64,000 nucleotides of DNA from Hyphococcus luteus (GTDB taxonomy: Bacteria; Pseudomonadota; Alphaproteobacteria; Caulobacterales; Parvularculaceae): the NCBI RefSeq assembly GCF_002943565.1, contig NZ_PJCH01000017.1, positions 186,001 to 250,000 on the forward strand. Reading direction: 5' to 3'. The notes under the pieces are model-generated. The model worked only from the letters and a program-made list of their open reading frames with translations. It was not told where the DNA came from and did not search any database. Of the stretch, positions 7,870-11,343 are shown one piece after another. Positions within the stretch are counted from its first letter, which is position 1; each line of letters begins with the position of its first letter. The translations under genes and the position numbers were made by a program.

Positions 7870-8862
7870 ATGGCGACGGATAATAAGAAAATCAAAGTCG
7901 TTCTGGCCCAGCCGCGGGGGTTCTGCGCCGGCGTCGAGCGCGCCATCGACATTGTCGAACGGGCGCTGGAGAAATACGGCGCCCCCGTCTATGTCCGCCA
8001 CGAGATCGTCCACAACAAATATGTGGTGGAGACCCTGCGCGCCCGGGGCGCGATTTTCGTCGAGGAAATCGACGAAATCCCGACCGGCGCGGTCACCGTT
8101 TTTTCCGCCCATGGCGTCGCCCGAAAGGTCGAAACCGGGGCGCTGGAGCGCGATCTCGACGTCATCGACGCCACCTGTCCGCTCGTCACCAAAGTCCACA
8201 AGGAGGGCCGCCGCTACGCCGAGAAGGGCTACGACATCGTCCTCATCGGCCATATCGGCCATCCGGAAGTGGAAGGCACGCTGGGCCAGATCGCCGGCCC
8301 CGTTCATGTGATTTCCGAGCCGGAAGACGTCGCCGGCCTCGACGTGGCGGACCCCGAGCGCGTCGCTTTCGTCACCCAGACGACGCTGTCGGTGAACGAC
8401 ACCAAGGACGTCATCGCGGCCCTCAAGGAACGCTTCCCGAATATCGTCGGGCCCGACACCCGCGACATCTGCTACGCGACGCAGAACCGCCAGACGGCGG
8501 TGATCGCCATGGCGAAGCAGGTGGATCTCCTGCTCGTCGTCGGCGCGCACAACTCCTCGAACTCGAACCGCCTGCGCGAGATCGGCGAGAATTTCGGCAT
8601 TCCGAGTTATCTCATCGAAGATGCGCGGATGTTCGATCCGGCCTGGCTCGACGGCGTTGAAACCATCGGCCTCACCGCCGGCGCCTCGGCGCCCGAAACC
8701 CTGGTGCAGGACACGATCTCGCGCCTCAAGCAACATTGCGACGTCACGGTCGACCTGCTCGACGGCGTCGAAGAAAACGTCCACTTCAAATTGCCGAAGG
8801 AACTCGCCGACACGCCGCGCCCGAAAGACGCGCTGGAAGCCTGGGCCGTCAGCAGCGCCTAA
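7870..8862 (+). CDS. ispH: 4-hydroxy-3-methylbut-2-enyl diphosphate reductase
   Basis: 330 residues. The three cysteines that hold the [4Fe-4S] cluster are at C19 (PRGFCAG), C103 (DATCPLV) and C201 ([11 protein letters not shown]), with the substrate-binding histidines in EIVHNK (48) and SAHGV (81). It is the last step of the MEP pathway, producing IPP and DMAPP. The ATG at 7870 is chosen over one at 7849 because GGAGGGG sits about 11 bases upstream of it. It is followed after 42 bp by hpnH; an ispH-hpnH pairing is common in hopanoid loci and links isoprenoid supply to hopanoid side-chain assembly. Confidence 0.95.
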
Positions 8863-8904
8863 CTCATCCGACCCTGAATTAGAAAAAACTCCGGAGACCC
8901 GCTC

Positions 8905-10059
8905 ATGTCAGTATCGCTTCACCAGCAGATCCGCGTCGGCGCCTATGTGGCGAAGCAAACCCTTATGGGTCGCGAGAAATATCCGCTGGTCCTGTTTCTT
9001 GAGCCGCTTTTCCGCTGCAACCTCGCTTGCCCCGGCTGCGGCAAGATCGATTATCCGGCGCCGATCCTCAATAAGCGCCTGTCGGCGCAGGAATGCCTCG
9101 ACGCTGTCGACGAATGCGGCGCGCCCGTGGTGGCGATCCCCGGCGGCGAACCGCTGATCCACAAGGAAATCGGCGAAATCGTCGAGGGCATCGTCAAGCG
9201 CAAGAAATTCGTGTCGCTTTGCACCAACGCGCTGCTGCTCGAGAAGAAACTGCACCTCTTCAAACCGTCGCCTTTCCTCTTCTTCTCCGTTCATCTCGAC
9301 GGCCTCGAGGAAGAGCACGACCGCGCGGTCGACCAGAAAGGCACCTTCAAGATCGCCGTCAAGGCGATCAAGGCGGCGCAGGACGCGGGCTTCCAGGTCA
9401 ATGTCAACGCAACGATCTTCGACAACATGACCGCGGAGCAGGTCGCGGACTATCTCGATTTCGCCACCGATCTCGGCTGCAACATCTCGATCTCGCCGGG
9501 CTACGCCTATGAGCGCGCCGAGGACAAGGAACACTTCCTGTCGCGCGAGAAAACCAAGAACCTCTTCCGCGACATCTTCAAGATCGGCAAGGAACGCGGG
9601 CGCGAATGGAACCTGTCGCACTCCTCGCTCTTCCTCAATTTCCTCGCCGGCAATGAAGAATATCACTGCACGCCCTGGGGCTCGCCGACGCGCAATGTCT
9701 TCGGCTGGCAAAAGCCCTGCTACCTTCTCGGCGAAGGCTATGTCTCCACCTTCAAGGAGCTGATGGAGACGACCGAGTGGGACAAATACGGCACCGGCAA
9801 ATACGAGAAATGCTCGAACTGCATGGCCCATTGCGGCTATGAGCCGACGGCGGCCATGGACGCGGTGAAGCATCCCTTCAAGATGTTCCGCATCCCGAAC
9901 ATGTTCAAGATCAAGACCGAGGGCCCCATGGCGCCGGAGATCGATCTGTCGAACGCGCGGCCCGCCGAGGACATGCACGAAGAACTGGTCGAAGCCGAGA
10001 TGTCAAAGATCGAGGCTGAGAAAAAGTCGGCCAAAGAGCGGGCCGAGGCTGCGGCGTAG
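8905..10059 (+). CDS. hpnH: Adenosyl-hopene transferase HpnH (radical SAM)
   Basis: 384 residues. The radical-SAM cluster motif CX3CX2C is at C38, C42 and C45 (RCNLACPGC), followed by GGEPL. A C-terminal Cys group (CSNCMAHCG) and a strongly charged Lys/Glu/Ala tail end the protein. HpnH adds the 5'-deoxyadenosyl group to hopene (diploptene), the first step of C35 hopanoid synthesis. The last 57 bases of the gene are repeated at 10368-10424 with four mismatches, flanking a low-GC insert. The next hopanoid step, HpnG, lies convergently downstream. Confidence 0.93.
   Translation: MSVSLHQQIRVGAYVAKQTLMGREKYPLVLFLEPLFRCNLACPGCGKIDYPAPILNKRLSAQECLDAVDECGAPVVAIPGGEPLIHKEIGEIVEGIVKRKKFVSLCTNALLLEKKLHLFKPSPFLFFSVHLDGLEEEHDRAVDQKGTFKIAVKAIKAAQDAGFQVNVNATIFDNMTAEQVADYLDFATDLGCNISISPGYAYERAEDKEHFLSREKTKNLFRDIFKIGKERGREWNLSHSSLFLNFLAGNEEYHCTPWGSPTRNVFGWQKPCYLLGEGYVSTFKELMETTEWDKYGTGKYEKCSNCMAHCGYEPTAAMDAVKHPFKMFRIPNMFKIKTEGPMAPEIDLSNARPAEDMHEELVEAEMSKIEAEKKSAKERAEAAA
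10003..10059. repeat. Direct repeat of hpnH 3' end, left copy
   Basis: These 57 bases are the hpnH 3' end, from the SKIEAEKK codons through the stop. They recur at 10368-10424 in the same orientation with four mismatches. The repeats flank 308 bp of low-GC DNA and behave like the duplicated ends of a site-specific insertion. Confidence 0.85.
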
Positions 10060-10086
10060 CGGCAGAAGCAGTGGGGGGGCTTGGGA

Positions 10087-10353
10087 ATGAACAACGTTAC
10101 AGCCACTGAGTTACTTCAATACTCTGCCGCTGCGATTGCAGTTCTTGTTTTTCTATTTGGATTATTAAGATGGGTACTGAAACTCGGAGATTTGGGACGA
10201 CTTCCAGCGTACCAACTTATCTTCGCACCATTGGCCTTGATACTAATAGTGGTTCTTGTTGGGGCAGGATGCGAGATGTTAATGGGCGACCGCTGTCCAT
10301 CACCCATAATGCAAAAGCGGTTAGAAGAGGGCCAGAACAAGACAGGCCCTTAG
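10087..10353 (+). CDS. Small low-GC two-helix membrane protein in a repeat-flanked insert
   Basis: 88 residues with two hydrophobic helices (about 13-32, AAAIAVLVFLFGLL; about 44-63, LIFAPLALILIVVLVGAGC) and a polar tail with two cysteines. The ATG at 10087 is used; an in-frame TTG lies two codons earlier. A GGGGGGG run stands just upstream and may act as ribosome binding. The GC content is well below hpnH and hpnG. The gene lies entirely between the two copies of the hpnH 3' end, so it is probable acquired cargo. No family recognised. Confidence 0.55.
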   Translation: MNNVTATELLQYSAAAIAVLVFLFGLLRWVLKLGDLGRLPAYQLIFAPLALILIVVLVGAGCEMLMGDRCPSPIMQKRLEEGQNKTGP

Positions 10354-10367
10354 CAAAAAGCGACAAA

Positions 10368-10424
10368 TCAAAGATCGAGGCTGAGAAAAAGGCGGCTAAA
10401 GAGCGGGCCAAGGCTGCGGCGTAA
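10368..10424. repeat. Direct repeat of hpnH 3' end, right copy
   Basis: Copy of 10003-10059 with four differences in 57 bases. The plus strand reads the duplicate HpnH tail codons out of any hpnH context, ending in TAA. The minus strand of this copy supplies the last 18 codons and the stop of hpnG, so the duplication rebuilt the 3' ends of both convergent genes. Confidence 0.85.
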
Positions 10425-11159
10425 AGTTTTCGCCGCGGCGGCCGAGTCCTGCCCGAGCTCTCTCAACGCCCATAATTGTTTGGGATCGCGCAGCGCCGCG
10501 CCGACCGTGGCGAGCGCGCGCACGGACCCGTCCGGCGCCACGGCGTTCAAGGCCGCCGGCGGCAGGGCCCGGTCCGCCGGGTCGGCGATGGCGCGGATGG
10601 CGAGAAACGGCGCGCCGGCGCGTGCGGCGGCCCGCGCCGCGCCATGGCTTTCCATGTCGACGGCGACGGCGCCGTGGTTCTGAAACAGCGCGGACTTTTT
10701 CAGCGTGCTGTCGACGATCTCGTCCGCGCCGAACAGCGCCGCCAATCTTGCTTCTACCTTCCCCCGCTCATCCCCGCGCAGGCGGGGATCCATTTTTGCA
10801 GACCTTCCTGGATTCCCGCTTTCGCGGGAAAGAGCGGGATTGAGACAACCGAGCAGATAACGGTCGCCCGCATAGACCGACCCGTCATCGGCGATGATCG
10901 TCTCGCCGATGACGAGATCGCCCGGCCTCAGCGCCGGATCGAGGCCGCCGGAAAAGCCGATGGAAAAGATCGCGCTCGCGCCCTCATTGCAGAAGTCCCG
11001 AGCGATGTCTTCCGCACGCGCCGCATTAGCGCCGGAAACCCCGATGCGGATCTTGGATTTGTCGACGCCCGCCGCAACAGCCTGCGCTTCGGATTTCAAC
11101 CCGCAAATGACGCCGATGAAATTGGAGCTATTAGTATCAGAGGCGCACATAGTTTTCAT
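10368..11159 (-). CDS. hpnG: Hopanoid nucleoside phosphorylase/nucleosidase HpnG, with an in-frame repeat insertion
   Basis: 263 residues of the MTA/SAH nucleosidase-phosphorylase fold: SIGFSGGLDPALRPGDLVI early, then VAVDMESHGAARAA (purine/ribose pocket) and FLAIRAIADPAD. In hopanoid loci this family (HpnG) removes adenine from adenosylhopane. Two oddities. Codons at 10758-10841 are a 28-codon palindromic repeat (SRESGNP ... MDPRLRGD) inserted in frame between YLLGCL and VEARLAALFG. The last 18 residues are the antisense of the duplicated hpnH tail. The start overlaps the upstream 68-aa ORF by 23 bp (an ATG at 11150 is also possible). Whether the altered protein is active is unknown. Confidence 0.82.
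   Translation of the reverse strand: MKTMCASDTNSSNFIGVICGLKSEAQAVAAGVDKSKIRIGVSGANAARAEDIARDFCNEGASAIFSIGFSGGLDPALRPGDLVIGETIIADDGSVYAGDRYLLGCLNPALSRESGNPGRSAKMDPRLRGDERGKVEARLAALFGADEIVDSTLKKSALFQNHGAVAVDMESHGAARAAARAGAPFLAIRAIADPADRALPPAALNAVAPDGSVRALATVGAALRDPKQLWALRELGQDSAAAAKTLRRSLGPLFSRLFLSLDL
10758..10841. repeat. Palindromic repeat inserted in frame inside hpnG (CCGCTCATCCCCGC family)
   Basis: 84 bp, exactly 28 codons. It is made of two hairpins, TCCCCGC-GCAG-GCGGGGA and TTCCCGC-TTT-CGCGGGAA, enclosed by CCGCTC ... GAGCGG-type outer arms. The same family occurs between genes at 57852-57941, and related ATCCCGGC-type hairpins lie at 56412-56617. Here it is translated rather than extragenic. 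Confidence 0.88.
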
Positions 11160-11343
11160 GAGTTGGATCTTCAGAACAGTAGATCCTAACCTCTACAATT
11201 TGACCATTATGCTCGATATTCTGAAGAGCCATTTCACCTACGCCACATTCAGGACATTTTACGTCGCGCTTGCCTTGTCTAAGGTCTTCGAAGGCTTTTA
11301 CCCATGCCTTAACTTTATCCTGAATATTGTTTCCGTCTTTCAC
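11137..11343 (-). CDS. Small low-GC protein with a cysteine knuckle, between hpnE and hpnG
   Basis: 68 residues starting at GTG, whose bases overlap the hpnE stop (GTGA), so it is translationally coupled to hpnE. It contains CPECG near the middle and a later YCSEDPTHEN with one Cys and one His, a possible partial zinc ribbon. Its base composition is far lower in GC than hpnE and hpnG. It occupies the position where squalene-hopene cyclase (hpnF) commonly lies. Its 3' end runs 23 bp into hpnG in another frame. No function is recognised. Confidence 0.5.
   Translation of the reverse strand: MKDGNNIQDKVKAWVKAFEDLRQGKRDVKCPECGVGEMALQNIEHNGQIVEVRIYCSEDPTHENYVRL

Follow-up and report, generated by a model that had tools for sequence, protein, structure and literature searches.

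The window, that is the whole analysed stretch of 64,000 nucleotides of Hyphococcus luteus, holds the convergent hopanoid genes hpnH and hpnG. The junction consists of the following features.

8905-10059, + strand: hpnH, adenosyl-hopene transferase; its final 57 bp are the left copy (ORF list, TIGR03470).
10003-10059, + strand: left copy of the old hpnH/hpnG overlap, coding for the end of hpnH (repeat comparison).
10060-10367, no strand: spacer of 308 bp and lower GC, gained between the copies; no recombinase match, no terminator by hairpin scan, single match in the genome (repeat, GC, genome and profile scans).
10087-10353, + strand: ORF of 88 codons, predicted small membrane protein, ORFan (ORF list, family and genome searches).
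10368-10424, - strand: right copy of the old overlap, the last 18 codons and stop of hpnG (repeat and 57-mer comparison).
10368-11159, - strand: hpnG, hopanoid-associated phosphorylase; start codon uncertain (ORF list, TIGR03468, relatives).

hpnH scores well over the cut-off of TIGR03470. The best profile for hpnG is TIGR03468 (E 1.2e-49), at 168.8 bits and under the 187.1-bit cut-off; similarity starts at codon 2-15, varying with the relative compared.

The two copies differ at 4 of 57 positions by direct count. The borders of the repeat coincide exactly with the stop codons (hpnG, 10368-10370; hpnH, 10057-10059), and no duplicated sequence is detectable in the window beyond the 57 bp. Recovered in another register by the repeat search as 63 bp at 90%, and by BLASTN as 56 bp at 94.6% (E 1e-22). 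The left and right copies align with a score of 103, against a shuffle maximum of 36 (200 shuffles). Identity of the right copy is 0.93 to the left copy and also 0.93 to the closest of the 21 distinct 57-mers from overlapped relatives; 0 of 3476 control windows equal the latter match (control maximum 0.53). A chance repeat is ruled out by the shuffle and control-window scores. Read in antisense, the left copy still codes for an unbroken hpnG-like end, at 94% across 18 residues; on the + strand of the right copy the hpnH tail is still readable and ends in TAA. GC content per 150-bp window is 54-67% at 8500-10074, 45-49% at 10075-10374 and 60-81% at 10375-11049. The repeat of the hpnH end with its four mismatches, the low-GC insert with its 88-codon ORF and the antisense origin of the hpnG stop and last 18 codons, all described in the original prediction, are thus confirmed.

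The spacer ORF has 88 codons from ATG, or 90 from TTG at 10081. The 88-residue product has two hydrophobic stretches, judged by eye. Matched in 0 of 384 other genomes of the class and, weakly, in 2 of 99 other relatives (E 1e-3 and 2e-3). Relatives were found neither in viral contigs nor in phages; against plasmids only one weak Nostoc match appeared (E 0.4), and PHROGs and NCBIfam gave no convincing family. The small gene was not seen as an old vertical member of hopanoid loci, a possibility raised alongside the original prediction. Further copies in the genome, for which a search had also been proposed, were not found: the spacer stretch matches itself only. No terminal inverted repeats (pairs of at least 12 nt) join the two ends of 10060-10367. 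The lack of such repeats and of other spacer copies in the genome speaks against a transposon or MITE with target-site duplication.

Overlapped relatives and separated loci of Parvularculaceae

The relatives' loci were the best 30 hpnH matches, the window's own among them; weaker or partial hits (G028, G058, G005, G019) were left out, and L012/L038, with a 54-bp flank, lies outside the judged set. G005, near by LeuA, has a partial hpnH, and no hpnG was found there. Of the 29 judged loci (window included in the 29), 20 have convergent hpnH and hpnG with a shared end of at least 57 bp. In 18 of these the overlap is exactly 57 bp from one stop to the other; that of L031 is 60 bp, and that of L023 reaches 321 bp because its hpnH has lost the usual stop and extends to 472 codons, possibly through an assembly error. 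The overlap is not kept in nine: the genes are 308 bp apart in the window (L002), 759 bp in L006, 1207 bp in L007, 350 bp in L029, 94 bp in L017 and 50 bp in L027, and share 4 bp in L008, L013 and L028.

Relatives without the insert overlapping by exactly 57 bp bear out the proposal that the two genes were once convergent and overlapping. Orthologues overlap in close relatives, and the gene ends of the window match those of overlapped relatives. Endings of hpnG resembling ..LFxRLFLSLDL are common to many overlapped relatives, so the hpnG end of the window is the old one. The C-terminus of hpnG was not rewritten, as had been supposed; duplication of the shared end left both genes with the ends they had in the ancestor.

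In the PBP1a tree (27 genomes) the window genome, G000, groups with G025 (support 96/96), then with the overlapped G009 (100/99). This group stands beside a clade of G003, G004 and the overlapped G027, the position of G027 being unsure because of its long branch and split PBP1a. Overlapped loci occupy early branches of the Parvularculaceae tree, in which the outgroup join is a long-branch one.

Other separated loci were compared in a set of 11 on the Parvularculaceae side, one per genome (L045 belongs to an alphaproteobacterium; the diverged separated loci L063, L065 and L109 were left out). A copy of the old overlap lies under the hpnG end in six, four of them with other DNA in between. Identity to the overlapped 57-mers is 0.93 in L002, 0.79 in L035, 0.77 in L051, 0.74 in L041, 0.68 in L006 and 0.65 in L056; in each, 0 control windows match as well (control maxima 0.53-0.60). 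For the older cases it is the overlapped relatives that are matched, identity to the locus's own left copy being only 0.47-0.54; the overlapped 57-mers served as reference because direct left/right comparison is too weak in old cases (L006, L041). No overlap copy survives in L059, L042, L049, L052 and L045 (5 of 11). By the frame test the hpnH register is favoured in 7 of the 11 loci, and the shuffle is beaten in 4. What the junctions contain differs: the window has its ORFan, L006 a 176-aa ORF that no Pfam family matches, and L056 an alpha/beta hydrolase. At least three separation events are inferred within Parvularculaceae; four to six are likely.

L035 and L051 have a longer hpnH tail followed directly by the old overlap under hpnG. 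They are the only loci approaching a tail repeat without insert, the arrangement held to speak against insertion, and match it in part: the old overlap lies under hpnG, and the hpnH tail is a different one. These loci bear on homology-facilitated illegitimate recombination, a known mechanism by which a foreign hpnH 3' end with its adjoining DNA would have recombined within hpnH and been joined, at a random point, shortly before the resident overlap, the left copy being the donor's and the right copy the resident one. Duplication and new DNA would thereby be explained in one step, and L035 and L051 fit; for these two, recombination of foreign DNA within hpnH is a reasonable alternative. As an account of the window junction the mechanism is unlikely. 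Third-position divergence of the window hpnH makes no donor-like jump against either relative: 0.10-0.28 against G025, with 0.32 in the last window, where the G025 tail differs, and 0.12-0.35 throughout against G009. Closeness to five overlapped relatives is about equal for the two copies (left 0.89-0.95, right 0.86-0.93) and singles out no foreign left copy.

The hpnH tails are of two types, short and long (..ATLIDK.. and similar), as noted for L035, L051, L059, L042, L049 and L052. Their scatter on the PBP1a tree suggests that hpnH 3' ends were exchanged between lineages.

A second family of loci

A second family was assembled around the Bradyrhizobium MAG of L086. hpnH was matched in 148 of 248 genomes, at about 150 places, and 110 loci were taken: 16 overlapped, 59 separated and 35 without hpnG in range (about 1.5 kb). 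Overlaps measure 30-84 bp, 60-66 bp in 11 of the 16. Gaps measure 64-1061 bp and do not exceed 300 bp in 46 of the 59. The loci share descent, so that counts are not independent events; many of the genomes are MAGs.

One clear second case of separation is L252. It groups with the overlapped L232 and L264 (both with 66 bp overlap; support 100/97). Its left/right score is 93, against a control maximum of 28, and 0 of 47 controls reach it. The repeat takes in 66 bp and then continues for about 31 bp after the hpnH stop: the 29 bp directly following that stop match hpnG antisense (0 of 2000 shuffles), and the upstream side gives no significant match (506 of 2000 shuffles). The spacer of L252 holds a dispersed repeat with at least 42 matches in its genome, G580, the locus itself included and 40 of 83 candidates scored. 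Dispersed-repeat-like sequence (..CGCGTTTTC..GAAAACGC..) occurs in the hpnH-hpnG gap of L252, L221 and L246, the likeness of the latter two compared by eye.

Across the family, the left/right score exceeds all controls in 10 of the 59 separated loci, the place of the match not being homologous in some (L224, L228). On the + strand under hpnG, the hpnH register gives the most hpnH-like reading in 46 of the 59 (means 27.6 vs 16.6 and 15.8); locus by locus, 21 beat their own shuffles at 0.02 and 13 do not favour this register. Terminator-like hairpins lie downstream of hpnH in 44 of the 59 separated loci and serve hpnG in 30; 28 loci have both. None was found in 59 hpnH-internal segments or in the 16 overlapped loci (after hpnH only). 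As these controls are coding DNA, the hairpins speak for terminators gained with the gap and not for an excess over other intergenic regions. By the same rule no terminator was found in four Parvularculaceae inserts, the window included. Larger gaps carry genes: an HTH_20 protein and an AHSA1 protein in L220, a methyltransferase-domain protein in L267, a PIN-domain protein in L211.

The family tree (74 of 75 loci, L293 left out) requires at least 10 changes of overlap state, and overlapped species are scattered among separated ones. This scatter would fit a history in which the separated state is ancestral and overlaps re-form repeatedly by deletion between repeats, and recombination is to be expected between direct repeats that lie 300 bp from each other. 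Such a history is nevertheless distinctly unlikely. Overlapped loci lie on the early Parvularculaceae branches and near the midpoint root of the second-family tree, a root used for drawing only. The hpnH stop under hpnG is lost in L252, L229, L246, L006 and L035 (kept in the window, L056, L051 and L221). The repeat is at once hpnH tail and antisense hpnG tail, and so needs an overlapping ancestor. Deletion between repeats could also bring overlaps back.

Site-specific integration at the hpnH 3' end is very unlikely. A small non-autonomous element would have been inserted by a tyrosine recombinase acting in trans, with the 57-bp repeats as attL and attR. Islands and cis-mobilizable elements at gene 3' ends consist of foreign DNA flanked by direct repeats of that end; the window has such repeats around its insert, with the gene intact, and different DNA stands at this junction in several species. 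Here, however, no recombinase was found in the window ORF or in seven ORFs from five other inserts (six inserts scanned), and neither fixed borders nor shared contents are present: a common repeat core and common insert ends do not recur across separate insertions. The repeat is 57 bp in the window and 66 bp plus about 31 bp in L252, where duplication past the hpnH stop means that the borders are not fixed like att sites. Also against integration are the single match of the spacer stretch in its own genome, the gaps of 300 bp or less in most separated second-family loci and a crude scan of 458.5 kb (the window and 394.5 kb of the same contig), in which hpnH/hpnG is the sole repeat-flanked convergent pair. 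That scan covered 435 candidate convergent ORF pairs, with crude gene calling and gaps under 30 left out; its 25 output pairs comprise 23 with the same DNA in both windows (gap <60), one 14-bp match and hpnH/hpnG itself.

A shared mobile cassette was rejected: single copy, ORFan, no recombinase in six inserts, contents and borders unlike those elsewhere. The mini cassette integrated in trans that the original prediction had put forward is not supported, given the same single copy, the nearly unmatched 88-aa protein, the unlike junctions of other loci and the differing borders of L252. Of the insertion with tail duplication originally envisaged, the duplicated overlap that left each gene an intact end stands; the mobile element lacks support.

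Proposed history of the junction

The window junction is probably a natural decompression of a convergent hpnH/hpnG overlap, with the shared end duplicated and unrelated DNA between the copies. The old overlap is read here as having been undone repeatedly, by duplication plus gain of DNA; for the way in which the duplication arose a mechanism can be proposed. In the ancestor, hpnH and hpnG had their last 57 bp in common on opposite strands, as shown by comparison with relatives. A segment with at least the whole overlap would have been duplicated in direct orientation, so that the left copy now closes hpnH and the right copy closes hpnG; this result is visible at the locus, and the event itself may have been an ordinary short tandem or template-switch duplication without a dedicated enzyme. 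Unrelated DNA lies between the copies, here 308 bp with the ORFan membrane-protein gene, and would have come into the now non-coding gap during the duplication or later, an order that we infer. After separation the needed frame is kept in each copy and the other frame decays, as is seen in several other loci.

Ends of the repeat at both stop codons would follow from selection: a duplication that falls short of the whole overlap breaks a gene, and surplus non-coding sequence decays or is deleted. The window repeat is nonetheless neater than a random duplication would give, since nothing is duplicated past the 57 bp, and this counts against the proposed history. Duplication without added DNA was not found, the smallest gap among the 59 separated loci being 64 bp; the two-step route thus stands without its intermediate.

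The available text of PMC4161906 and PMC3843671 describes neighbouring bacterial genes that overlap in certain species and stand apart in others. The word "duplication" has 0 occurrences in either. The same text discusses moved start or stop codons, or lists separated pairs as a class, whereas in hpnH/hpnG the shared end is duplicated. For human genes, the text available of PMC3614620 argues that duplicating an overlapping gene pair would free each gene to evolve independently; there the whole pair is copied and the argument is general, whereas here the shared end alone is copied and cases are at hand. Engineered genome decompression is described, in the part of PMC11527146 available, for phiX174, where copying of the shared sequence lets the overlapping genes lie next to each other. 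That decompression is by design and in a phage; that of hpnH/hpnG is natural, chromosomal and repeated, and the other gene leaves a trace that decays. In the literature searched, mostly at the level of title listings, no account was found of overlaps decompressed naturally through duplication of the shared end.

Published work, as the available text of PMC4161906 puts it, has centred on the creation of overlaps and not on their loss, so that the separation of overlaps is less studied than their origin. hpnH/hpnG offers repeated cases beside overlapped sisters, in which a second copy of the shared DNA allows both proteins to be retained. The junction is also an example of a place at which ORFan genes and terminators can come into a packed cluster with the neighbours unbroken. 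The antisense ghost of hpnH under hpnG may reveal past overlaps after separation. More tentatively, and with the balance slightly against it, duplication of the shared segment may be a general and recurrent bacterial route out of long convergent overlaps, turning a locked junction into a slot for terminators, dispersed repeats and new genes; hpnH-hpnG would then be a natural replicate series with a readable ghost of the lost frame.

Other low-GC and palindromic sequences

A second small low-GC ORF, 11137-11343 on the - strand, lies between hpnE and hpnG: 68 codons, Zn-ribbon-like with CxxC, weak family matches only, matched in 0 of 59 other genomes; as for the 88-aa protein, a further search for relatives gave nothing. 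A palindromic repeat stands in frame within hpnG at 10765-10845 (..SRESGNPGRSAKMDPRLRGDE..) and resembles repeat-derived peptides (RPE-like). Similar palindromes occur between hpnE and hpnG in L035 and L037. The hpnE-hpnG gap contains a palindromic repeat in G025 and G009, and in G027 measures 569 bp with other low-GC DNA.
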